In this document: positions 24,977-37,783 of the stretch, piece by piece
How positions within the stretch are numbered: position 1 is the stretch's first letter
How the letters are laid out: each line of letters opens with the position of its first letter
Source: Aurantimonas aggregata
GTDB lineage: Bacteria > Pseudomonadota > Alphaproteobacteria > Rhizobiales > Rhizobiaceae
Length of the DNA stretch: 64,000 nt
Direction of reading: 5' to 3'
Assembly (NCBI RefSeq): GCF_010500835.1
Contig: NZ_JAAAMJ010000002.1
Coordinates: 248,001-312,000, forward strand
Notes under the pieces: generated by a model
The model's input: only the letters and a program-made list of their open reading frames with translations
Databases searched by the model: none
What the model was told of the DNA's origin: nothing
Program-made: the position numbers and the translations under genes

Positions 24977-26095
24977 TCAGCTCGGATCGGCGAGGCAATC
25001 GCGCATCGATGCCGCCATGGTCTCGATCAGCTCGAAGTAGAGTTCCGGCCCGTCGGCGATGTCGGCGCCGAGCGGGTCGAGCCGGCCGGTGCGGGCGTCG
25101 GTGCCTTCGGTCACCACCGAGATGATGCGCGGCTCGAATTGCGGCTCGGCGAAGACGCAGGTCGCGCCGAGTTCGCGCACCCGTGCCTGGATTTCCGTGA
25201 CACGCTCGGCGCCGGGCGGCGTCTCCGGGTTGATGGTGATCGAGCCGGCCGCCTCGAGCCCGAAGCGATGCTCGAAATAATGATAGCCGTCGTGGAAGAC
25301 GATGAAGCCGCGTCCCTTCACCGGCTCGAGCTCTGCCGCGACCTGTGTCGTCAGCTCGTCGAGCCGCTGGTCGAGTGCCGCAGCGTTGGCGGCATAGCGC
25401 TCGGCGTTCTCCGGATCGGCGGTCGCGAGCGCCGATCCGATGGCCGCGGCGAGCGCCTTGGCGTTCTGCGGATCGAGCCAGACATGCGGGTCGGACTCGC
25501 CATGGTCGTGGTGCTCCCCGCCTTCCGAGGCTTCGTGTGCATGATCGTGCGATGCCTCCGCAGCAGCCGCTTCGTCCGCGTGATCGTGAGGCTCGCCCGC
25601 CGCTTCCTCGTGGTCGTGCTCCGCACCGGCAGCCGCTTCCTCGTGCGGCTCCTCCGCTGCTGCCTCGGGGGCATGGTCATGACCGCCCGCAGCCTCGGCC
25701 CCGTGGTCGTGGCCCTCATGCGCATGGTCGTGCGCCTCGAAGGCGCCACCCTCGCGGAAGGGCAGAAGCTCGAGGCCGGGCGCATCGATCAGCGACACGG
25801 ACGTGGCGCCGGCGCCGATCGTCTCGATCGGACGCTCGAGGAAAGTCTCCAGCTCATGGCCCATCCAGAAGATCAGGTCGGCCTGTTCCAGATCCGCGGC
25901 CTGCGACGGCTTCAGCGCGTAATTGTGTGGCGAGCCGGCGCCGGCGACGATCAGCGACGGCTCGCCGACACCTTGCATGACCGCCGAGACCAGCGAATGC
26001 AGCGGCTTGATCGACACGACCACATTCGGGGCGGCAGAAGCGATCCCCGCCGTAGCGAACATCAGCGAGGCGGAAAGGGCGAGCAGGCGGACCAT
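24977..26095 (-). CDS. znuA: High-affinity zinc ABC transporter, periplasmic binding protein
   Basis: ZnuA captures periplasmic Zn2+ for ZnuBC. From ATG 26095 (GGAG upstream) a Sec signal ends near IASAAP. The conserved opening VVVSIKPLHSLVSAVM with a zinc-ligand His, SPHNYALKPSQ with the second, and FHDGYHYFEHRFGLE with the third are visible. A low-complexity loop of about 85 residues, dense in His, Glu, Ala and Asp, lies between GGAFEAHDHAH and ESDPHVWLDP. It is much longer than in E. coli ZnuA and probably buffers or hands over zinc. The gene diverges from znuC across a probable Zur box. Confidence 0.95.
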   Translation of the reverse strand: MVRLLALSASLMFATAGIASAAPNVVVSIKPLHSLVSAVMQGVGEPSLIVAGAGSPHNYALKPSQAADLEQADLIFWMGHELETFLERPIETIGAGATSVSLIDAPGLELLPFREGGAFEAHDHAHEGHDHGAEAAGGHDHAPEAAAEEPHEEAAAGAEHDHEEAAGEPHDHADEAAAAEASHDHAHEASEGGEHHDHGESDPHVWLDPQNAKALAAAIGSALATADPENAERYAANAAALDQRLDELTTQVAAELEPVKGRGFIVFHDGYHYFEHRFGLEAAGSITINPETPPGAERVTEIQARVRELGATCVFAEPQFEPRIISVVTEGTDARTGRLDPLGADIADGPELYFELIETMAASMRDCLADPS

Positions 26096-26117
26096 GGACA
26101 CTCCAAGCGTTTGTTTT

Positions 26118-26151
26118 GTTATCACGTTACAATGTTGCGTAACGCTATAAC
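26118..26151. promoter_or_regulatory. Probable Zur operator in the znuA/znuC divergent promoter
   Basis: GTTATCACGTTAC (26118-26130) and GTAACGCTATAAC (26139-26151) form an inverted repeat matching at 11 of 13 positions around an 8-base spacer. It is an AT-rich island between two divergent zinc-uptake arms whose operon encodes Zur. Fur-family repressors bind dyads of this kind. The assignment comes from position and symmetry. Confidence 0.75.
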
Positions 26152-26205
26152 GTATGGGATAGGGAAGCTCAAGCACCCATTCGCATTCCGCCAGGCTCCA
26201 TCCTG

Positions 26206-27096
26206 ATGATTTCCTCGTCGTCCCTCGTATCCCTCGCCGGCGCCGGCATGCAGCGCGCCGGCCGCTGGCTGGTGCGCGGCGTCGATCTCGACGTGCGGCC
26301 GCGCGAGATCGTCACGCTGATCGGACCGAACGGCTCGGGCAAGTCGACCACGGCGAAGCTGGCGCTCGGCATCTGGACGCCGTCGGAGGGCACGGCACAG
26401 CGGGCGGCCGATCTGCGCGTCGGCTACGTGCCGCAGAAGGTCTCGGTCGACTGGACGATGCCCCTGACGGTGCAGCGCTTCATGCAGCTGACCAATCGCC
26501 TGACGCCGGACGAGATCAGCGCCGCCATCGAGAGCACCGGCATTTCGCATCTGCGCCACGCGGAAGTTCGCGAATTGTCGGGCGGCGAGTTCCAGCGCGC
26601 CATGCTGGCGCGGGCGATCGCGCGCAAGCCGCAGCTGCTGGTCCTCGACGAGCCGGTGCAGGGCGTCGATTTCTCCGGCGAGATCGCGCTCTACGAGCTG
26701 ATCGTGACGATCCGCGACCGGCTCGGCTGCGGCATCCTCTTGATCTCGCACGATCTGCACGTGGTGATGGCGGCGACCGACCGGGTGATCTGCCTCAACG
26801 GCCATATCTGCTGCCAGGGCGCGCCGAGCGTCGTGGCGGCCAGTGACGAGTATCGCCGGCTGTTCGGCGAGCGCACGGCCGACGCGTTGGCGCTCTATCG
26901 TCACCACCACGACCATACGCACCTGCCGGACGGGCGGGTGCGCCAGGCCGACGGCAGCGTGACGGCCAGTTGCGATGGCGGGGATTCGACCCGCGACCAT
27001 GCAGGCCACGGGCACCGGGGTCACGACCACGCGGATCACGGAGATGCGGCCGAGCCACACGTGACTGCGCCGCGTCCGGAGAAGACCCATGCTTGA
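26206..27096 (+). CDS. znuC: Zinc ABC transporter ATP-binding protein with His-rich tail
   Basis: ZnuC powers zinc import. The Walker A motif GPNGSGKST (residues 40-48), the signature LSGGEFQRA, the Walker B LLVLDEP, and the switch His in LLISHDLH are intact. Beyond the normal domain (about 235 residues) there is a tail of roughly 60 residues rich in His and Asp, including HHHDHTH and HAGHGHRGHDHADHGD. The core ATPase does not need it and it probably binds zinc at the cytoplasmic exit. The gene overlaps znuB by eight bases. Confidence 0.95.
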   Translation: MISSSSLVSLAGAGMQRAGRWLVRGVDLDVRPREIVTLIGPNGSGKSTTAKLALGIWTPSEGTAQRAADLRVGYVPQKVSVDWTMPLTVQRFMQLTNRLTPDEISAAIESTGISHLRHAEVRELSGGEFQRAMLARAIARKPQLLVLDEPVQGVDFSGEIALYELIVTIRDRLGCGILLISHDLHVVMAATDRVICLNGHICCQGAPSVVAASDEYRRLFGERTADALALYRHHHDHTHLPDGRVRQADGSVTASCDGGDSTRDHAGHGHRGHDHADHGDAAEPHVTAPRPEKTHA

Positions 27097-27919
27097 CGGC
27101 TTCCTCGCCCGGGCCTTCGTCGCGGCGATCGGCGTCGCCCTCGTCGCGGGACCGCTCGGCTGCTTCATCGTCTGGCGGCGGCTCGCCTATTTCGGCGACA
27201 CGCTGTCCCACGCCGCGCTGCTCGGCGTCGCGCTGGCGTTTCTGCTCGAGGTCAACGTGACGCTCGCCGTCTTCGCCGTGGCGGCCTTCGTGTCGCTGGC
27301 GCTTCTGTGGCTGCAGCGCCGTGCCTCGCTCTCCTCGGATTCGCTGCTCGGCCTCCTGTCGCATTCGGCGCTCGCCATCGGGCTGGTGGTGATTGCCTTC
27401 ATGCCCTGGGTGCGGGTCGACCTGATGGGCCTCCTCTTCGGCGACATCCTCGCCGTCTCGCGCACCGACATCGCGCTGATCTATGGCGGCGGCGCCCTCG
27501 TCCTGGCGGTGCTGGCAACGATCTGGCGCCCGCTCTTCGCCGCGACGGTGAATGCCGACCTCGCCGCCGCGGAAGGCATGCGCCCCGAACTCGCCAATCT
27601 GATCTTCATGGTGCTGATGGCGGTGGTCATCGCCATCGCCATGAAGATCGTCGGTGTCCTCCTGATCACCGCGCTGCTGATCATCCCGGCTGCGGCGGCA
27701 CGGCGTTTCTCGGTGAGCCCCGAAGGCATGGCGGCACTGGCCGCGATCATTGGCGTTCTCGCCGCCATCGGCGGCCTGCTCGGCTCGCTTCAGTGGGACA
27801 CGCCGTCGGGGCCCAGCATCGTCGTCGCTGCGCTGCTCCTGTTCCTGATCAGCCTGTCGCCGCTGGCCGGCTGGGCCATGGCGCTGCGAAACAGAACCCT
27901 CGGCGGAGCCCGTTCATGA
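27089..27919 (+). CDS. znuB: Zinc ABC transporter permease
   Basis: ZnuB is the membrane channel of the zinc importer. The 276 residues form about eight hydrophobic helices, with the ABC-3 family pattern FIVWRRLAYFGDTLSHAALLG near the start and the loop MKIVGVLLITALLIIPAAAA late in the protein (quoted parts only). It begins inside the 3' end of znuC and ends in an ATGA overlap with zur, so znuC, znuB and zur are translationally coupled. Confidence 0.94.
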   Translation: MLDGFLARAFVAAIGVALVAGPLGCFIVWRRLAYFGDTLSHAALLGVALAFLLEVNVTLAVFAVAAFVSLALLWLQRRASLSSDSLLGLLSHSALAIGLVVIAFMPWVRVDLMGLLFGDILAVSRTDIALIYGGGALVLAVLATIWRPLFAATVNADLAAAEGMRPELANLIFMVLMAVVIAIAMKIVGVLLITALLIIPAAAARRFSVSPEGMAALAAIIGVLAAIGGLLGSLQWDTPSGPSIVVAALLLFLISLSPLAGWAMALRNRTLGGARS

Positions 27920-28317
27920 ATTCGACGCATCCCGACCTGACGCGCAACCAGTCGCTGGTCTACACGGCGCTGACCCGAGCCCCCGGCCCGCTCAGCGCCT
28001 ACACGATCCTCGACAATCTGCGCGAGGACGGGCTTCGCGCGCCGCTGCAGGTTTATCGCGCGCTGGACAAGCTGGTGGAGATCGGTCTCGTCCACCGGCT
28101 GGAAAGCCTCAACGCCTTCGTCGCCTGCCATCACGGCCATGGCGAACACGATGCGGCAGTGTTCGCCATCTGCGAGCAGTGCGGCAAGGTGCTCGAGCTG
28201 TCCGATGACGCGACGATCCACCGGCTGGAGACGCTGGCGAAGAAGGTCGACTTCGCCGTCGCCAAGACGACGATAGAGCTGCGTGGCCGCTGCGCCGCCT
28301 GCGCCAAGGCGGCCTGA
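27916..28317 (+). CDS. zur: Zinc uptake regulator, Fur family
   Basis: Zur represses zinc uptake genes when zinc is plentiful. The 133-residue protein has an N-terminal winged-helix domain (LTRNQSLVYTALTRAPGPLS then LQVYRALDKLVEIGLVHRLE), the regulatory zinc site HHGHGEHD, and the structural zinc cysteines CEQCGK and CAAC near the C-terminus. The ATG at 27916 overlaps the znuB stop. Co-transcription with znuCB would make it autoregulated through the dyad at 26118-26151. Confidence 0.95.
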   Translation: MNSTHPDLTRNQSLVYTALTRAPGPLSAYTILDNLREDGLRAPLQVYRALDKLVEIGLVHRLESLNAFVACHHGHGEHDAAVFAICEQCGKVLELSDDATIHRLETLAKKVDFAVAKTTIELRGRCAACAKAA

Positions 28318-29908: not shown

Positions 29909-30448
29909 ATGACGCCGATCGATGCCTATCTGCCCGAGGACCGGCGCTACCCGGTTCCCTCCCGCATCCTGCACTGGCTGGTCGCGATCCTGGTCATCGT
30001 CGTCTGGCCGCTTGGCATGGTGATCAAGTTCATCAACGAGGACGCCAAGCTCAGCTTCTACATGCTGCACGAATCGTTCGGCTTCCTCATCCTCTGGCTG
30101 ATGCTGGCCCGGCTCGCCGTGCGGCTGCTGCGCCCGCCCCCACCTGGCCCGCCGCTGCCGGTCCTGCAGGAACGCGCCGCGGCGACGGTGCATGCCCTCC
30201 TCTATGTCGCGCTGATCGCCCAGCCGGTCATCGGCTTCCTGACGACCAACGCCTTCGGCTTTCCGCTCGACTGGTTCGGCCTCTTCACCGTCTGGAGCCC
30301 GATCGGCAAGTCGGACGCAGCGGAAACCCTGAAGACCATCCACGTCTTCCTCGGCTGGAGCATCCTCGTCCTGTTCGCGCTGCATATCGGCGGGGTGCTG
30401 CACCACCATGTGCTGCGCCGCGATCCGACCCTGCAGCGCATGCTCTAG
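29909..30448 (+). CDS. Cytochrome b561 family protein
   Basis: This 179-residue inner-membrane dihaem cytochrome b has four hydrophobic helices. The expected axial His residues lie in RILHWLVA, LHESFG, TVHALLY and ALHIGGVLHH. Members of the YodB/CybB group pass electrons from quinol to periplasmic or membrane acceptors, for example superoxide. It stands alone, 79 bases after ribokinase and convergent with the methyltransferase gene only three bases away. Confidence 0.88.
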   Translation: MTPIDAYLPEDRRYPVPSRILHWLVAILVIVVWPLGMVIKFINEDAKLSFYMLHESFGFLILWLMLARLAVRLLRPPPPGPPLPVLQERAAATVHALLYVALIAQPVIGFLTTNAFGFPLDWFGLFTVWSPIGKSDAAETLKTIHVFLGWSILVLFALHIGGVLHHHVLRRDPTLQRML

Positions 30449-30451
30449 CGG

Positions 30452-31237
30452 CTATCGCGGCAAGGCCAGCACGTCGAGATGGCCGACACGGCAGCCACTC
30501 GACTCCACCACCGCAAGCCGCGCATCAAGCCAGGCGGCGATCGCGGCCTCGGCAAGTTCGCCGGTCTCGCGCACGGCCGTGGCCATGCCCTCGACGAACT
30601 TCGTCTGCAGCCCCGACATTCCCCCGTCGAGCCGCCAGGGGCTGGACGCTGTGCGGACATCGAGGCCCTGACCGGCGAGCTCGTCCGCCAGAGCCGCGCC
30701 GGCGTCGGGGCCAAGTGCCGGGCCAAGGCCCTTGTCGCTGCGCTGATGCGCATTGAACAGCGCCACCATGGCCGCGTCCTCGGCATGCGGCACGTCGAAG
30801 ACGATCGTCCCGTCATAGCTCAGCGCCGCATAGAGGCCGATACCCTCGCGCGCCAGGCGCCCGGCGAGGCGCGCGACGAAATCCCGCGAGGCAAGATCGA
30901 ACAGGGCCGAGGCGGTAGCGAGCCGCGCCGGCCTCAGTTCGAGCGCATCAAGATCGCCGAGATCGGCGAGCAGGGTCTCGACCGAGCTGCCCGGCGGCCG
31001 GCGCCGCTCGGCCTCGGCCAGAAGGGCGGGATCGTTGTCGACCAGCCGCCAGTTGAGGCCCGGGACCAGCGGCCCGAGCGTGCGCAGCGTCGAGCCGGTG
31101 CCGCAGCCGAGATCGACGGCGAGCGCGTTCGGCCTGGCGGACAGATATGCCGCCGCCGCTTCCAGAAGCTCGGGATCCCTGGCGGCCATATCGGCCGGCT
31201 CCCGGAGATCCAGCCAGCGTGCCTCGAAGCCGCTCAT
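30452..31237 (-). CDS. Class I SAM-dependent methyltransferase
   Basis: The SAM-binding motif I is visible as ALAVDLGCGTGSTLRTLG near residue 50, followed by an acidic RLVDNDPALLAEAE strand-loop. This is a Rossmann-fold methyltransferase of 261 residues. The ATG at 31237 overlaps the stop of the GT4 gene as ATGA, making it the last gene of a four-gene cluster with the PTPS-like and dehydrogenase genes. The acceptor is unknown. The context suggests a small pterin-like or glycosylated metabolite, which is inference. No signal peptide is present. Confidence 0.82.
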   Translation of the reverse strand: MSGFEARWLDLREPADMAARDPELLEAAAAYLSARPNALAVDLGCGTGSTLRTLGPLVPGLNWRLVDNDPALLAEAERRRPPGSSVETLLADLGDLDALELRPARLATASALFDLASRDFVARLAGRLAREGIGLYAALSYDGTIVFDVPHAEDAAMVALFNAHQRSDKGLGPALGPDAGAALADELAGQGLDVRTASSPWRLDGGMSGLQTKFVEGMATAVRETGELAEAAIAAWLDARLAVVESSGCRVGHLDVLALPR

Positions 31238-32280
31238 CGTGCCACTCCTTCCAGGGCGGCGGCGAGGGTCGCCGCGGATTGGCGCCACGAGGGCAGCTTC
31301 CGCCCGGCGGCATGGGAGGAGGCGGCCATCTCCGCCCGCAGTGCCGGGTCGGCAATCAGCCGTCCGAGCGCGTCGGCAAAGGCCGCGACGTCGCCCGGCG
31401 CGACAAGGATGCCGGCGGATTCCGGGACGACGTCGCCGACGGCCCCGGCCCTGCAGGCGACGATGGGCAGGCCGTTGGCCATCGCCTCCGCGAAGACCAT
31501 GCCGTAGCCTTCGTAGCGGCTGGCGAGGGCGAAGATGTCGGCGCGCCGGTATGCCGGCGCTACGTCCGGCAGGGCGCCGGCGAGTTCGATGCGGTCGGCA
31601 AGGCCGCTGCCGGCGATCTGGTCGCGTAGCGCCGCGGTCGTTGCCGGATCGGCGTCCAAGCCGCCGACGATGCGGCAGCGCCAGTCGTGGTCGGCCAGAA
31701 GGGTGAGTGCCGCGACCAGCGTCGCATGATCCTTGCGCGGGATCAGCGTGCCGATGGCGAGGATCAACGGCGCGCCGCCGCTGCCCTTGGCGCGCGGCGC
31801 CGGATCGGTGCCGGGCAGCGCGACGGTGAGGCGTTCGGCCGGAACGCCCCAGTTGGCGACGAGTTCACTTGCGGTGGCCGGGCTGGTCACCACCACCGCT
31901 TCGGCAAAGCCGAGCGCCGCCCGTTCCGAGCGCTCGAGGCCCTCGCGCTGCGCGGCCGAGAGCCCGGCCTCCAGCGCCAGCGGATGGTGCACCAGCGCCA
32001 CCAGCCTGAGCCGGCCTGCCTCGGCCCGAGCAATGTCGGGCATCGCTCCGAAGGCAAGCCCGTCGATCAGAACCGGCGTCCGGTCCGGGATCGCGGCCAG
32101 GGCGGCGGCCGTCGCGTTCAGGTCGGCGGCGCCCGGCGCCGGAAAGCTGCCGGGCAGATGCAGACGCGTCACGTCCCAGCCGAGGCCGGAAAGTTCCGCC
32201 AGCATCCGCCGGTCATAGCCATAGCCGCCGCTTCGGGTCTCGATATCGCCGGGGATGGCGAAGACCAGCGGTCGCGTCAA
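31234..32280 (-). CDS. GT4 family glycosyltransferase of the PTPS-like cluster
   Basis: This is a 348-residue GT-B glycosyltransferase. The donor-binding motif SRYEGYGMVFAEAMANGLPI contains the E-x7-E pattern, the GTLIPRKDHATLVAAL stretch opens the C-terminal domain, and the N-terminal loop is SGGYGYDRRML. It begins with TTG at 32280, overlapping the PTPS-like stop (TTGA), and ends overlapping the methyltransferase start, so it is embedded in a tightly coupled operon. It is separate from the polysaccharide locus. A role in glycosylating a soluble metabolite is plausible. Confidence 0.85.
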   Translation of the reverse strand: MTRPLVFAIPGDIETRSGGYGYDRRMLAELSGLGWDVTRLHLPGSFPAPGAADLNATAAALAAIPDRTPVLIDGLAFGAMPDIARAEAGRLRLVALVHHPLALEAGLSAAQREGLERSERAALGFAEAVVVTSPATASELVANWGVPAERLTVALPGTDPAPRAKGSGGAPLILAIGTLIPRKDHATLVAALTLLADHDWRCRIVGGLDADPATTAALRDQIAGSGLADRIELAGALPDVAPAYRRADIFALASRYEGYGMVFAEAMANGLPIVACRAGAVGDVVPESAGILVAPGDVAAFADALGRLIADPALRAEMAASSHAAGRKLPSWRQSAATLAAALEGVAR

Positions 32281-32675
32281 AGATCGGCCTCGTACCAGGC
32301 CCGCGCGACATGGGATTCGTGCAGCTGGATCTTCAGGCGGACGACCTTCTGCCCGCCGGTGCCGAGAGCGCCCGCCGCAATCCGTCCGGCGATTTCGCGG
32401 AAGATGTGCCGGGCCAGGAACTCCGTCGTCGTCACCTTGCCGTCGAATATCTCCAGCGCGTCGAGGTTCTGGTAGTTGAGCGGCTTCAGCGTCTCGGACA
32501 GGATCTGGGTCGCGAGGCCGATATCGATGGCCAGGCCGTCATCGTCGATGTCCTCGGTGAAGAAGGCGGCGTCGACCACGAAGGTCGCGCCGTGCATGCC
32601 CTGCGCCGGGCCGAACACCTGGCGTGGCAGGCTGTGGGCGATCATCATGTGGTCGCGAACTTCGACGGCGAACAT
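32277..32675 (-). CDS. Divergent 6-pyruvoyl-tetrahydropterin synthase (QueD/PTPS)-like protein
   Basis: This protein of 132 residues has the PTPS/QueD T-fold. ATG 32675 follows AAAGGA; ATG 32699 is an alternative. Aligned by eye with E. coli QueD, the first zinc-ligand His is kept (MMIAHSL), but the segment equivalent to CGRLHGHS reads AQGMHGAT, losing the catalytic Cys and one zinc His. LDHHYLN becomes LNYQNLD, losing the Asp-His pair. The Glu near the end (LHESHVA) is kept. It is therefore unlikely to be an ordinary 6-carboxy- or 6-pyruvoyl-tetrahydropterin synthase despite such annotations. It lies between the dehydrogenase and GT4 genes. Confidence 0.8.
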   Translation of the reverse strand: MFAVEVRDHMMIAHSLPRQVFGPAQGMHGATFVVDAAFFTEDIDDDGLAIDIGLATQILSETLKPLNYQNLDALEIFDGKVTTTEFLARHIFREIAGRIAAGALGTGGQKVVRLKIQLHESHVARAWYEADL

Positions 32676-32691
32676 GGGCAGTCCTTTCGGG

Positions 32692-33663
32692 TCAGTCATA
32701 GCGGATGCGATGGCAGAGCGTTGCCGGGTTGGAAAGGATCCCGGCGTAGGCGGCGGCGAGATGGGAGAAACGTGTCTCGCCGGAAATCAGGATGTCGAGG
32801 CGGGGATCGGCGAGGAGGTCGAGCGCTGCCGTCAGACGCCGGCGATAGTCCCAGCGCGCCCGCCGCTCCGGCGGCAGCTGGCCGACCTGCGAGGCGACGA
32901 TCGAGAGCCGCCGGCTGTGGAAGGCGCCGCCGAGCGGCACCGCGACGCTTCGGTCGCCATACCAGCTCGCCTCGACAAGCCGCGCCTCGAAGCCGGCGCA
33001 ATCGAGCGCCGTGGCAAGACCCGCCTCGCTGGCCGAAGCGTGGATCACCACGTCGCATTCGGTCGGTGCGTCGCCTGGCGCGGCAAAGCTGCAGCTGAGC
33101 GCGGCGGCGGTCTCGGCCCGACCGCCATCGCGGTCGACGATGGTGACCCCACAGGCGGGGATGCGGGCCGCGAGGCTACCGACCAGCATGCCGACCAGAC
33201 CGCCGCCGACCACCGCCACCCGGTCGCCGGGCCCGATCTTCGCGTCCCAGACGATGTTGAGCGCGGTTTCCATGTTGGCGGCCAGCACCGCACGTTCGGC
33301 AGGCACCGCGGCGGGGATGGGGACGGCGGCCTCCGCGGGAACCGAGAAGCGGTCCTGGTGCGGATAGAGGCAGAAGACGGTCTCGCCGATCCTTTCCGCC
33401 GGTCCTTCGACGATTTCGCCGACGACCGCATAGCCGTATTTAACCGGGAAGGGGAAATCGCCCTCCTGGAACGGCGCCCGCATTCGCTCGTATTCGCTCT
33501 CCGGCACGCGTCCGGCCGCGACCAGCGCCTCGGTACCGCGGCTGATCGCGCCGAAGCGGCTCTCGATGCGCAGGTCGCCGTCGGCAACGGCCGGCAGCGG
33601 ACTGTCCCTGAGCGCTGCATCATTCTCGCCTTCCAGCCACAGAGCGCGACAAAGTGTCGTCAT
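32692..33663 (-). CDS. Medium-chain dehydrogenase/reductase (BchC-like, no catalytic zinc site)
   Basis: This 323-residue MDR-family oxidoreductase has the nucleotide-binding GPGDRVAVVGGGLVGMLVG near residue 165. The N-terminal domain reads AISRGTEALV where zinc alcohol dehydrogenases have the first zinc Cys, and VKYGYAVVGEI where they have GHE. The catalytic zinc ligands thus appear absent, as in BchC-type dehydrogenases. Four-cysteine structural zinc binding is also missing. ATG 33663 is the first good start. The gene begins the four-gene cluster and diverges from the GTP cyclohydrolase II gene across about 300 bases. Confidence 0.8.
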   Translation of the reverse strand: MTTLCRALWLEGENDAALRDSPLPAVADGDLRIESRFGAISRGTEALVAAGRVPESEYERMRAPFQEGDFPFPVKYGYAVVGEIVEGPAERIGETVFCLYPHQDRFSVPAEAAVPIPAAVPAERAVLAANMETALNIVWDAKIGPGDRVAVVGGGLVGMLVGSLAARIPACGVTIVDRDGGRAETAAALSCSFAAPGDAPTECDVVIHASASEAGLATALDCAGFEARLVEASWYGDRSVAVPLGGAFHSRRLSIVASQVGQLPPERRARWDYRRRLTAALDLLADPRLDILISGETRFSHLAAAYAGILSNPATLCHRIRYD

Positions 33664-33967
33664 CGGGCCTCGCAGAGCGTCACGAGGGCCCGAACGTCGG
33701 CGCACGAGCGCCCGCTGCGGGTCGCCAGTCTCGGACAGCGTGTCGTCATCGGGGATGGTAGGCGATTGTATTGCAACGGCTAATCCGGCGGGAGGGCGCA
33801 AGGCGCGCGGGGGGTTCGGCGATGAAACTGTGGCTTTGCACATCTGCGTCAACGCGGCGCTTCGCCTCTCGCCGTTTTCGGATCGAAGACGATGTTTCTT
33901 CCTCAGGCTGCTGGCATGCGCGTCGGCGGACCCAACATGCATGCGTGAGTACGGGCGAGGACGGGCC
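33664..33967. other. 304-bp divergent intergenic region between the MDR gene and ribA
   Basis: This stretch must hold the promoters of both the dehydrogenase-led cluster and ribA. I looked for an FMN riboswitch before ribA and could not recognise the conserved RFN helices. A slightly AT-richer stretch around 33760-33785 (GATTGTATTGCAACGGCTAAT) could contain promoter elements. Nothing else can be supported. Confidence 0.4.
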
Positions 33968-35101
33968 ATGGGCAACATGATGATCAACGCGAAGACCGCC
34001 GCAACGCCGGCGCTGCTGCCGGCTGGCGGGTCGACGGCAGCCATCCGCTGCGAGCGGGCAGCAGCGGAGCTGCGTTATGGCCGGCCGGTGCTGATCCGCG
34101 GGAACGACGGCGCGACGCTGGCCGCGCTCGCCCTCGATGCCGCCGATCGAGCCGCCTACGAGGCGTTCGGGGCGGCGCTCGGCGACCGTCACGACCTGTT
34201 TCTGACGCCGACGCGCGCGGCCGTCCTTGGCCTGACCGCGCCGACCGGTGCGTTGTTGCCGCTCGGCGGCATCGGTTTTGCAGAGGCCTGCCATCTGGGC
34301 TATTTGCGCGGCGCCTTCCGGCTGCGCGACTGGCGGGAGGGTGGCCCGCTGGAGTCCGAAGCCGCTTTGGCCGCCCGGCTGGCGCTGCTGCTCCCGGCCG
34401 TCGTCTGCGGCCGGGTCACGGCGGACAACCCGGCTTTCGCCGACGCCGTCTCGCTCGAGCTCGGCGATCTCGACGCCGCCAATCTTGCAAATCTCGGGCG
34501 GTTCGAGGTCGTGGCGCGAACCGAGGTGCCGTTGAAGGGCATCGAGTCGGCGGAGTTCGTGATCTTCCGCGGCGGCCTGGCGCAGCGCGACCAGGTGGCG
34601 ATCGTCGTCGGCGATCCCGATCGCAGCCGGCCGGTACCGGTACGGGTCCACTCGTCCTGCATCACCGGCGATCTCTTCGGTTCGCTCAAATGCGACTGCG
34701 GCGACCAGCTGCGCGGCGGCCTGAAGACGCTCGAGGAACGCGGCGGCGGCGTGCTGATCTATCTCGACCAGGAAGGCCGCGGCACCGGGATCGCTGCGAA
34801 GATGCGCGCCTACGGGATGCAGGGCGAAGGGCTGGACACGATCGACGCCGACGCGCAGCTGGGTTTCGGCGCCGATGAACGGCGCTATGAGGCGGCCGCG
34901 GCCATGCTGTCCGGCCTCGACATCAACCGCGTCGACCTGTTGACCAACAATCCGCTGAAGGTCGCGTATCTGCGAGCCTGCGGCATCGACGTCGTCTCGC
35001 GCACGCCGGTGCTCGGGCCGCTGACGGCCCAGAACACCGGCTATCTGCGGACCAAGTCGCGCCGCGGCGGCCACATGCTCGACCAGTTGTTCGAGGGATG
35101 A
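33968..35101 (+). CDS. ribA: GTP cyclohydrolase II with an N-terminal extension
   Basis: GTP cyclohydrolase II opens and deformylates GTP to the diaminopyrimidine that starts riboflavin synthesis. The C-terminal 200 residues are typical: VRVHSSCITGDLFGSLKCDCG with the three zinc cysteines (quoted as HSSCITGDLFGSLKCDCG), DQEGRGTGIAAK with catalytic residues, and the GTP-binding LTNNPLKV. The first 170 or so residues match no motif I recognise; they could be a degenerate RibB-like or lineage-specific domain. From ATG 33968 the product is 377 residues, against about 200 for E. coli RibA. It is divergent from the PTPS-like cluster and may feed it. Confidence 0.9.
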   Translation: MGNMMINAKTAATPALLPAGGSTAAIRCERAAAELRYGRPVLIRGNDGATLAALALDAADRAAYEAFGAALGDRHDLFLTPTRAAVLGLTAPTGALLPLGGIGFAEACHLGYLRGAFRLRDWREGGPLESEAALAARLALLLPAVVCGRVTADNPAFADAVSLELGDLDAANLANLGRFEVVARTEVPLKGIESAEFVIFRGGLAQRDQVAIVVGDPDRSRPVPVRVHSSCITGDLFGSLKCDCGDQLRGGLKTLEERGGGVLIYLDQEGRGTGIAAKMRAYGMQGEGLDTIDADAQLGFGADERRYEAAAAMLSGLDINRVDLLTNNPLKVAYLRACGIDVVSRTPVLGPLTAQNTGYLRTKSRRGGHMLDQLFEG

Positions 35102-35114
35102 ACCGCCGCCGGGC

Positions 35115-35876
35115 TCACGCCCCGTTGTCGCGGAAGCAGTAGACGTCGCCGGAATTCGCGGCGTCGGGTAGGTCGCGCAGCTTGTCGCGGATTGCTTCCC
35201 ACGAACACGGCTCGTCGAAGACCATTTCGTGGGTCTCGCCGAGCGAGATGTTGAAACGCCGATAGCCAAGGTCGCCGGCGCGCGCGAGACTGCGCAGCGC
35301 CACGTCCCGCTGCAGCGTGGTGAACTCGAAGGACAGAACCCTCACCGGCCGGCTGAGCCCGGCCAGCACGCGATCCTCCAGCCCCTCGACGTCGATCTTG
35401 ATGAAGGCCGGCTCGCCATGGGCGACGATCAGGCGATCGATGGTCGTCGCCTCGACCCTGACGGTCTCGTTCCAGACTTCGCTGCCCCAGCTTTCGTGTC
35501 CCGCCGCCGCCGTGACCATCTGGGTCGAGGCCGTCGACACGGTCGGGTTGGCCCCGTTGATGCGCAGTTCGAGGATGCCAGGCGCGGCATCCACCGCGGC
35601 CTGAAGGATTGTCACCGACGAATCGCGGCCGAACAGCGCCCGCAAGAGGCGCGCCGGCCGCGGCTGCGGCTCGATCGCGACGACACGGGCGCCGAGCTGC
35701 CGCATGACCCTGATCCGGTCGCCGACATGGGCGCCGATATCGAAGGCAAGGTCGCCGGGCGAGAGAAACGGCTGGTAAAGCCGCGTCAGCCCATCGTGAT
35801 GGCTGCGATCACCGTGATAGACGCGCAGGCTCCTCAGGATCCCGAGCCAGCCACGAAACTCCGTACCGAAGCGCAT
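35115..35876 (-). CDS. FkbM family methyltransferase
   Basis: This is a 253-residue SAM-dependent methyltransferase of the FkbM group, which generally O-methylates sugars or polyketides. SAM motif I is DLAFDIGAHVGDRIRVM and the FkbM hallmark is PAFIKIDVEGLEDRVLAGL. Its ATG overlaps the opgH stop by one base (TGATG), so its synthesis is coupled to OpgH. That pairing suggests methylation of the glucan backbone or its precursor, but the active site would have to be cytoplasmic because no signal peptide is present. Confidence 0.88.
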   Translation of the reverse strand: MRFGTEFRGWLGILRSLRVYHGDRSHHDGLTRLYQPFLSPGDLAFDIGAHVGDRIRVMRQLGARVVAIEPQPRPARLLRALFGRDSSVTILQAAVDAAPGILELRINGANPTVSTASTQMVTAAAGHESWGSEVWNETVRVEATTIDRLIVAHGEPAFIKIDVEGLEDRVLAGLSRPVRVLSFEFTTLQRDVALRSLARAGDLGYRRFNISLGETHEMVFDEPCSWEAIRDKLRDLPDAANSGDVYCFRDNGA

Positions 35877-37783
35877 CAGCGACGACCGGCTTCAGCTTCG
35901 GCGGCGAGCGGTACGGCTGCCGGCAGCAGCGGCGAGGTGCGTCCCTCGACCCCGCGCCACGGCCGCGCCTCGATCGGGATCAGCCCGCGCAGCAGCCGCG
36001 GCAGAATGGATTCCTCCGGCGTCGCGAAGAGACCTGCCCGCGCGACGATCCGCCCGAAGCCCGGCGAGGCGGTGATGACGGTGAACGGTACGGCGAGGCA
36101 GAGACCGGCGACGAACGGCGCGCCCCAGAGCAGCGCCACCGGGCTGGCCGCAAAGAGCACCGCCGCCATGGCGAAGCCGAGCAGCGTCTGCGGCCACATG
36201 GCCTTGAACGCCGACGTCCAGCCGACACCGAGCTTGTCGCGATTCTGGCCGCTCCACGTCACCGAGCGTCCGAACGGCAGGCCGACGAGGAAGAGCGAGA
36301 CATAGACGGCGACGATCGGCGCCATCAGCATCGACACCGGGATCTCGATCAGCGCCGAGGCGAGGAAGCGGATCGGCCCGCCATAGGCTCGAACGGCGCC
36401 GCGCGTCGCCAGCACGTCGATAACGCCCGCAATCTTCGGCGCGATCGACAGGACGAAGATGGTCAGGAACAGGCCGAGGCCGAGCTGGAGATAGGCCGGA
36501 TCGAACGTGCCGGTCACGCCCTTGACGGTCGCGGCGATGGTCATCGCGATCCAGGCGGGCGGGGCCATGTACATCAGGATCGCCTGCAGGATCTGGAAAC
36601 GGCTGATGGCCATCAGCCCCGATGCACGCAGGAAGCGCCAGTACTGCATGTTGCCCTGGCACCAGCGAAGGTCCCGCTTGGCGAACTCCGGCAGCGTCGG
36701 CGGGCTGGTCTCGTAGCTCTGCGTCTCGACCGGCACGATCCGGACTTCGTAGCCGGCGCGCCGCATCAGCACCGCCTCGAGCTGGTCATGGCTGAGCACG
36801 TGGCCGCCGAGCGGCGCCCGTCCCGGCAGGATCGGCAACTCGCAATGGTCGCGGAAGGCCCGCGTGCGGATGACCGCGTTGTGGCCCCAGTAGGAGCCGC
36901 AATCGGCGGTCCACCAACTGGCGCCCATGGTGAAGGAGCGCATGCCGTGGCGCATGCCGAACTGGAAGATGCGCGCAAAGCCGCTGGTCGCGGGCGTGCC
37001 GACGACAAGGCTCTGCAGGATGCCGAAGCGCGGGTTGGCCTCCATCGTCGCGACCAGCCGGGACATGACGTCGCCGGACATCACGCTGTCTGAGTCCAGC
37101 GGCAGGTAGAAGTCGAAAGCGTCGCCGTGGTGCTCGAGGAAATCGCGGACGTTGCCGGCCTTGAAGCCGACATTCTTGGCGCGGCGGCGATAGACCGGGC
37201 GCATCGGATCGTCGTCTGCAAACACCGTTGCGAAGCGCCTGAACTCGGCCTCCTCCGCCAGGGCGATCTTTGGCTCGCTGGTGTCGCTGAGAACGAAGAA
37301 GCGGAAATGCTCGCGGAGCCCGGTGCGCTCGAGGCTGATGCGCATTGCCTCGATCCGCTCGAAGATCGGGCGCGGGTCCTCGTTGCGGAGGAACACCGTC
37401 AGCGCAGTGCGGCTATGAAGGTGGCGAACGCGGCCGACCGGCCCGGCCGAGAAATACGGATAGACGCTGCGTGCCGGATCGGCCGGCCCGTGCATCAGGA
37501 CGAGGCCGATGACGGCATTCCAGAAACCCAGCACCGTCCACGGCGTCGCCAGCATGAAGCCGACCAGCATGACCCATTCGGCACCGTCGATGACGCCATC
37601 GGCGCTGAGCAGCGTCACCACGCCGGCAGCCAGCGCTACGAGCGTCACGAGATTGAGGACGAGCACGATCAGCCGACGCACGGCGACAGGCAGCCCTGCG
37701 GGCTCCGGCGGACGGGCAGCACGTTCCAGGTCTTTCGTCATGGGCAATGACAGTTCGTCGTCTGCCGACGGGACTCGCAACAC
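35876..37783 (-). CDS. opgH: Glucans biosynthesis glucosyltransferase MdoH/OpgH
   Basis: OpgH polymerises and exports the linear beta-1,2-glucan backbone of osmoregulated periplasmic glucans from UDP-glucose. It has two N-terminal membrane helices and a GT2 domain with LPLDSDSVMSGD (DxD region) and RDLRWCQGNMQYWRFL (the Q/RxxRW acceptor motif), followed by further helices. It is 635 residues, shorter than the 847 of E. coli. GTG 37783 has an AAGGAAG at proper spacing and is preferred to ATG 37741. The usual partner opgG is not adjacent; an FkbM methyltransferase follows instead. Confidence 0.88.
   Translation of the reverse strand: MLRVPSADDELSLPMTKDLERAARPPEPAGLPVAVRRLIVLVLNLVTLVALAAGVVTLLSADGVIDGAEWVMLVGFMLATPWTVLGFWNAVIGLVLMHGPADPARSVYPYFSAGPVGRVRHLHSRTALTVFLRNEDPRPIFERIEAMRISLERTGLREHFRFFVLSDTSEPKIALAEEAEFRRFATVFADDDPMRPVYRRRAKNVGFKAGNVRDFLEHHGDAFDFYLPLDSDSVMSGDVMSRLVATMEANPRFGILQSLVVGTPATSGFARIFQFGMRHGMRSFTMGASWWTADCGSYWGHNAVIRTRAFRDHCELPILPGRAPLGGHVLSHDQLEAVLMRRAGYEVRIVPVETQSYETSPPTLPEFAKRDLRWCQGNMQYWRFLRASGLMAISRFQILQAILMYMAPPAWIAMTIAATVKGVTGTFDPAYLQLGLGLFLTIFVLSIAPKIAGVIDVLATRGAVRAYGGPIRFLASALIEIPVSMLMAPIVAVYVSLFLVGLPFGRSVTWSGQNRDKLGVGWTSAFKAMWPQTLLGFAMAAVLFAASPVALLWGAPFVAGLCLAVPFTVITASPGFGRIVARAGLFATPEESILPRLLRGLIPIEARPWRGVEGRTSPLLPAAVPLAAEAEAGRR

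Follow-up and report, generated by a model that had tools for sequence, protein, structure and literature searches.

A conserved PTPS-IV gene unit in Aurantimonas aggregata with a possible role in making a GTP-derived conjugate

Gene content of the locus

A 64,000-nucleotide stretch of the Aurantimonas aggregata genome (hereafter the window, meaning the whole stretch analysed) carries four overlapping minus-strand genes, for an MDR-fold dehydrogenase, a PTPS-like protein, a GT4 glycosyltransferase and an S-adenosylmethionine (SAM)-dependent methyltransferase, which face a plus-strand gene for GTP cyclohydrolase II (GCH II; ribA). These four genes are the core of a real and widespread conserved unit, and the PTPS-like protein belongs, going by its sequence, to a subfamily for which earlier publications had introduced the name PTPS-IV. 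A previous sequence-only reading of the locus had described the four genes as overlapping or nearly touching, and the coordinates agree: the MDR and PTPS genes share 8 bp, PTPS and GT4 4 bp, and GT4 and methyltransferase 4 bp (ATGA), with the TTG start of the GT4 gene overlapping the PTPS stop. The facing ribA lies, as described, on the plus strand, 304 bp from the MDR gene; its likeliest start is 33968, the position 33566 of the open reading frame list marking the longest open reading frame only. The unit and its closest neighbours are laid out as follows.

30452..31237, minus strand: class I SAM-dependent methyltransferase (Methyltransf_25 PF13649 26.7 bits, just below the cut-off of 27)
31234..32280, minus strand: GT4 glycosyltransferase with TTG start (PF13692 110 bits)
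32277..32699, minus strand: PTPS-IV subfamily protein, T-fold, 140 aa (PF01242 68.1 bits, cut-off 22.4)
32692..33663, minus strand: MDR-fold dehydrogenase, distant from BchC (BchC model 51.8 bits)
33664..33967, no strand: divergent intergenic region between ribA and MDR, 304 bp (from the gene coordinates)
33968..35101, plus strand: ribA, GTP cyclohydrolase II with an N-terminal extension (PF00925 171 bits, cut-off 23.3)
35115..35876, minus strand: FkbM-family methyltransferase (PF05050 51 bits)
35876..37783, minus strand: OpgH-like membrane glycosyltransferase, GT2 (two NCBIfam MdoH models passed)
29909..30448, plus strand: cytochrome b561, probable associate (PF01292 103.7 bits)

The extent of 30452-35101 originally proposed for the cluster does hold five of these genes but misses a membrane part. 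Judged from sequence, the unit reaches past 35101 and includes the FkbM and OpgH-like GT2 genes, which overlap by 1 bp, share the strand of the four core genes beyond ribA, and are counted in because they are conserved in loci elsewhere. The gene for cytochrome b561, a convergent neighbour adjoining the methyltransferase side of the core, is probably part of the unit as well. Two RNA candidates were rejected: an FMN riboswitch before ribA, with no Rfam match at gathering score in the 304-bp region of the window or in seven relatives, and an ARAGORN tRNA-Gly at 31747-31824 within the GT4 gene, to which Rfam gives no support.

Conservation of the core and class of the PTPS-like protein

Relatives of the locus were collected from several sources. 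Genomes of 84,980 species were scanned, possibly without records near-identical to the window genome; 499 stretches proved to encode a PTPS relative, and the best 80 were kept. Against the resulting bias towards closest relatives, we widened the sample by 64 order-level loci (strong matches were present in 89 genomes, and 63 of them supplied these loci), by 36 class-level matches out of 44, the window genome not counted, by nine loci from a phylum sample (22 matches, the others being already included or not taken at length), and by 13 of the 20 records for plasmids. Together with the window this makes 203 loci. These belong to Alphaproteobacteria, other Proteobacteria and Actinobacteria, the last reached through plasmids only, and the same species is possibly represented more than once. 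Genes within 8.5 kb of the PTPS gene were counted as neighbours, using score limits for the hidden Markov models of the neighbour families that were chosen after the score lists had been inspected; the limit for the flippase-like family (FLIP) was changed from 180 to 150 bits between a count of 190 loci and the count of 203.

All 80 named relatives (the best 80 of the 499) keep the order MDR-PTPS-GT4-methyltransferase, the closest of them being Aurantimonas endophytica with a PTPS 96% identical, and the exact run MDR+ PTPS+ GT4+ MT+ (MT, methyltransferase) within 3.5 kb was found in 172 of 190 loci; the arrangement is therefore not due to chance. The test for co-occurrence of dehydrogenase, GT4 and methyltransferase with the PTPS-like gene that the sequence-only reading had suggested gave a strongly positive result: MDR lies near PTPS in 197 of the 203 loci, GT4 in 196 and a separate methyltransferase in 185, while in six more the methyltransferase is fused to GT4, so that all four core genes are present in 187 loci with these fusions counted. 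We regard GT4 and methyltransferase as a functional pair that may act on the same molecule. GT4 is not nearby in L125, L239 and L222, and MDR is missing in L165 and L216, the latter at a contig end. The core is also found in Streptomyces, Microbacterium, Thiodictyon and Rhizobium, in Methylosinus trichosporium OB3b the cluster is carried by plasmid pOB3b1, and a conjugative Neorhizobium plasmid carries mdoH-MDR-PTPS-GT4-MT as a five-gene run, whose fifth gene is annotated as hypothetical and matches the methyltransferase profile. Two individual loci deserve mention. L077 (from a record titled as a metagenome-assembled genome of Arenimonas sp.) has the rhizobial gene order and a PTPS of 71% identity under a gammaproteobacterial title, and its contig may be misbinned, and in one Shinella locus the GT4 gene (L103:10378-11462) is split into two overlapping open reading frames by a frameshift or a sequencing error.

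The accessible text of PMC5041015 distinguishes PTPS-I by CxxxHGH, PTPS-II (biopterin) by CxxxxxHGH and PTPS-III (folate) by ExxHGH, and that of PMC5445326 states that PTPS-IV sequences preferentially have FGPAQ. The window protein carries FGPAQGMHGA. Across the 203 loci, FGPAQ occurs in 201 and HGA in all, HGH in none, and no sequence has a Cys within eight residues before HGA. The idea that the PTPS-like protein acts as a standard pterin PTPS thus has to be given up, with the motifs of all three classes missing. A QueD/queuosine identity (PTPS-I) is ruled out by the lack of CxxxHGH and by 30 bits against a QueD model cut-off of 89.25, a PTPS-II membership by the absence of CxxxxxHGH from the 203 loci, and a PTPS-III membership by the absence of ExxHGH. 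The fold is nonetheless shared with QueD, and so is the His of the HG pair. The predicted structure (predicted local distance difference test, pLDDT, 90.6) matched the T-fold, with a template modelling (TM) score of 0.92 and 53% identity to 3d7j (SCO6650 of Streptomyces coelicolor) and a TM score of 0.73 to the QueD structure 4ntk. In SCO6650, zinc, a catalytic triad and PTPS activity are reported to be lacking, while the pocket is pterin-like. Six residues are invariant over the 203 sequences (His22, His36, Asp59, Asp80, Glu93 and Glu128), and we take Glu128 to be the counterpart of the ring-binding Glu of QueD.

Within the order, PTPS-IV was found in 89 of 297 genomes (about 30%; E <= 1e-18), and nine more have weak matches only. 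Three Streptomyces plasmids (L118, L126 and L240) present a second context of the family, with PTPS-IV near MBL-fold, cupin, MEKHLA or YbaB-family genes.

At E <= 0.001 no Pfam family was matched by the MDR protein, which in NCBIfam matches the model of BchC weakly, far under the cut-off of 291.25, by which BchC itself was rejected. It has no invariant Cys, the best Cys column being filled in 129 of 187 rows, and a classical zinc alcohol dehydrogenase with a conserved catalytic-zinc cysteine was rejected likewise.

RibA, a dedicated reductase and the precursor

The window RibA scores 481 bits with PRK08815 (cut-off 464) and 209.6 bits with PRK00393 (cut-off 148), and 179.2 bits with the TIGR00505 domain, below its 205.85. 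The three zinc-cysteine positions are Cys in all 93 RibA rows besides Escherichia coli, the window included, and the window protein keeps the position of E. coli Tyr105; the E. coli reference row in this comparison was entered by hand. The suspicion that ribA might be only a neighbour is largely countered by the neighbour counts, since RibA lies near PTPS-IV in 92 of the 203 loci and a dedicated RibD-type reductase in 137, while a FolE-like gene was found in just one fetched stretch (by BLAST with the FolE of the window genome as the one query; FolE2 was not sought). What remains of that suspicion is that ribA may also serve riboflavin. The single FolE-like neighbour detected for PTPS-IV clusters is L221:11250-11978.

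Genome-wide counts over the 297 genomes of the order point in the same direction. The dedicated RibD is present in 67 (E <= 1e-25), 66 of these with PTPS-IV (Fisher p 6e-45, relatedness ignored), and long-form RibA in 53, of which 46 have PTPS-IV; among the 89 PTPS-IV genomes the reductase is missing in 23 and long-form RibA in 43. Moreover, the reductase adjoins RibA away from PTPS-IV in at least nine genomes (G065, G070, G106, G167, G207, G211, G230, G232 and G294). Its best solved relative is 6p8c, named as a reductase of 2,5-diamino-6-ribosylamino-4(3H)-pyrimidinone 5'-phosphate (DARPP), the GCH II pyrimidine, followed by phosphoribosylaminouracil reductases and RibD. Both the DDPRL..R and the PVRVV.D segment are still present in it, and the proteins tested gave a RibD_C match only, with no deaminase domain. 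The same pair of families appears in the accessible text on AGeNNT, where PF00925 and PF01872 are neighbours of PTPS-IV (cluster 62, 561 sequences; PMC5445326), although PF00925 is labelled there as GTP cyclohydrolase I/FolE2 and described by Pfam as GTP cyclohydrolase II. As RibA and the dedicated RibD recur and FolE does not, the precursor is probably DARPP, and GCH II is probably not a bystander of the cluster. A TrpF bypass that reportedly leads from the GCH II product to dihydroneopterin phosphate suggests that chemistry of this kind is feasible; our literature search found no paper on it.

A creatininase-family gene lies near the cluster in 14 of the 203 loci, 11 of them also with RibA, and six of six relatives tested match PF02633; the formamidase BrbF is of the creatininase family too, according to the accessible part of PMC9478397. 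That a creatininase makes up for a GCH II in which Met stands in place of Tyr105 was considered and rejected: Met occurs in one of 93 rows (L119, with creatininase), and Tyr is retained in seven rows with a creatininase, which leaves no general correlation. Such a Met enzyme reportedly gives a formyl product, as is said of work on SCO6655.

GCH II, the RibD-type reductase and the creatininase family together resemble the archaeal route that leads to 5-amino-6-ribitylaminouracil, the common precursor of coenzyme F420 and riboflavin. PTPS-IV has indeed been mentioned as an F420 enzyme, through unpublished work cited in the accessible text of PMC5041015. That the unit serves F420 or riboflavin is most improbable, however. 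CofH has no match in the window genome at E <= 0.001, by which the F420 pathway was rejected there, and no deaminase, lumazine synthase or FO synthase is among the annotated recurrent neighbours (ten representative loci, part of the neighbours). Glycosylation, methylation and membrane steps moreover fit neither pathway, as far as is known.

Membrane part and proposed product

The membrane part comes in two versions, an OpgH-like GT2 with FkbM here, and a CDP-alcohol phosphotransferase (CDPOH) with a flippase-like protein (and FkbM) elsewhere. The OpgH-like gene is found in 75 of the 203 loci, FkbM in 86, CDPOH in 92 and, fused to FkbM, in two more (94 altogether), the flippase-like LPG_synthase_TM in 70, a sulfatase family in 72 and cytochrome b561, at varying positions, in 98. 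CDPOH and OpgH occur together in none of the 203 loci, whole fetched stretches included, and the flippase-like gene tracks CDPOH (independent-pair test, median p 0.03). The catalytic motif of CDPOH is intact in 91 of 92. Cruder motif patterns, from which nothing is drawn, matched 156 of 185 methyltransferases, 146 of 196 GT4 and 63 of 75 OpgH proteins, with DSDS in 16 of 75 OpgH.

The window OpgH-like protein passes two NCBIfam MdoH models with 520 bits (cut-offs 328 and 419) and reaches 728.9 bits with the top model, below its 884. Unlike in OpgGH, no OpgG is adjacent, all five MdoG matches of the window genome being on other contigs, and membership in OpgGH glucan synthesis was rejected. Of two OpgG loci inspected elsewhere in the genome, one holds an OpgG-OpgH pair of its own, whose OpgH is 39.5% identical to the window protein over 339 aa; therefore the window protein is probably something other than the housekeeping glucan enzyme. 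Four full-length OpgG (MdoG) copies are present in the window genome (contigs C1, C6, C28 and C30), by impression a large number.

The recurrence of GT4, OpgH-like GT2, FkbM, sulfatase-family, CDPOH and flippase-like proteins, together with the two FkbM-CDPOH fusions, would also suit an envelope polysaccharide or glycolipid locus in which PTPS-IV and MDR act on a sugar or lipid part, without any pterin or pyrimidine. Such a locus would not account for RibA being accompanied by a dedicated RibD-type reductase, nor for the invariance of residues in the T-fold protein, and we consider it quite unlikely.

From the parts described, we infer a product, chemistries for PTPS-IV and MDR, a possible lipid attachment and an envelope location: with roughly even chances, the conserved unit makes a glycosylated, methylated, envelope-associated conjugate derived from DARPP. 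RibA, going by its intact active-site residues, would open GTP to give DARPP, on which, or on a product of which, the dedicated RibD_C-type reductase would act in most relatives; in the window genome the canonical RibD would have to substitute for it. PTPS-IV might then bind the 2-amino-4-oxo-pyrimidine edge, common to DARPP and pterins, via the invariant Glu128 and work without the usual Cys/His chemistry, perhaps in sugar-chain rearrangement, ring closure or binding. The BchC-like MDR protein without an invariant cysteine may oxidise or reduce the side chain. GT4 and the SAM enzyme, the pair that is fused in six loci, would transfer a sugar and a methyl group, respectively, presumably to one target molecule, and either of the alternating membrane versions could finish the molecule or place it in the envelope. 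The sequence-only reading is thereby partly supported: the cluster probably makes a small molecule from GTP and modifies it, albeit not with a standard pterin-forming PTPS. In a bolder form, which we regard as doubtful, the product would be a membrane molecule of a new kind, a glycosylated and methylated DARPP-derived pyrimidine or pterin that CDPOH joins to lipid (or the OpgH-like enzyme completes) and the flippase-like protein carries over the membrane, with a possible redox coupling to cytochrome b561 and with PTPS-IV as the T-fold enzyme for the GCH II product, a counterpart of PTPS for the GCH I product.

A number of points weigh against a DARPP-derived conjugate. Within 8.5 kb, RibA is missing from 111 of the 203 loci and RibD from 66, no methyltransferase was recognised in 12, and PTPS-IV stands without core genes in the three Streptomyces plasmids and in L168, so the protein can serve elsewhere. 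Long-form RibA occurs without PTPS-IV in seven genomes of the order. The window genome has no dedicated RibD, its sole PF01872 match being the canonical RibD, and the window ribA is the only GCH II of the genome that looks intact and may therefore also serve riboflavin. Against ArfB (cut-off 180), three creatininase relatives gave 37 bits, 27.8 bits and no match; they fall below every NCBIfam cut-off and are nearer MftE than ArfB. The alternation of CDPOH and OpgH involves only five tree changes, and the independent-pair test does not confirm the exclusion (median p 0.5). Further, a reduction of the ribosyl chain by RibD blocks an Amadori-type pterin closure, so that the reductase and PTPS-IV steps may exclude each other or differ in substrate. 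Finally, we know of no product, enzyme activity or mutant for the cluster.

Several of these points would fit ribA as a housekeeping riboflavin gene, with MDR, PTPS-IV, GT4 and methyltransferase making a soluble pterin glycoside from the GCH I product. Bacterial pterin glycosides exist, FolE is encoded elsewhere in the window genome, and the many loci without RibA, the seven genomes with long RibA alone and the window ribA as sole intact-looking GCH II are all in its favour; the second PF00925 match of the genome, a RibBA homologue, has by eye lost the zinc cysteines. On the other hand, the near absence of FolE from the surroundings of the core compared with RibA and RibD, the genome-wide tracking of PTPS-IV by the dedicated RibD and the lack of the motifs of pterin-making classes in PTPS-IV all speak against it, and we hold it to be unlikely. 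RibBA without the three zinc cysteines (G000:C3:20871-21296, locus L229) implies in itself that either the window ribA or another enzyme supplies riboflavin, the latter having been proposed for Sinorhizobium meliloti in the accessible part of PMC9478397.

The PTPS-IV label and the structure 3d7j were already known. With the PTPS-IV of COG0720, as described in the accessible text of PMC5041015 (Zallot 2016) and PMC5445326 (AGeNNT 2017), the locus shares FGPAQ. Of the neighbours PF00925 and PF01872, which recur across the family, the window has RibA beside PTPS-IV but no dedicated RibD_C gene. These accounts, in their accessible text, contain no MDR-GT4-methyltransferase core, no membrane part and no product beyond the F420 remark, and our literature search, with sources accessible in part, found no paper on this cluster and no product named for it, in line with the earlier statement that none was assigned. 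SCO6650 has the same T-fold in an actinobacterial host, and two related Streptomyces loci carry the version with CDPOH and the flippase-like protein. The likeness to riboflavin enzymes lies in RibA, which passes PRK08815, and in the dedicated reductase, closest to DARPP reductase among solved structures; unlike riboflavin RibD, this reductase is coupled to GT4, methyltransferase and membrane enzymes and has no deaminase domain. Public records label these PTPS-IV genes '6-carboxytetrahydropterin synthase' with a role in queuosine, while they stand in another gene context in about 30% of the sampled genomes of the order and in two phyla. The link of PTPS-IV to the GCH II branch and to a swappable membrane part offers a testable route to a metabolite of numerous bacteria, rhizobial and marine ones among them.

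Elsewhere in the window, 24977-28317 holds what the translations alone suggest to be a zinc-uptake-like set, made up of ZnuA, ZnuC, ZnuB and a regulator of the Fur type.

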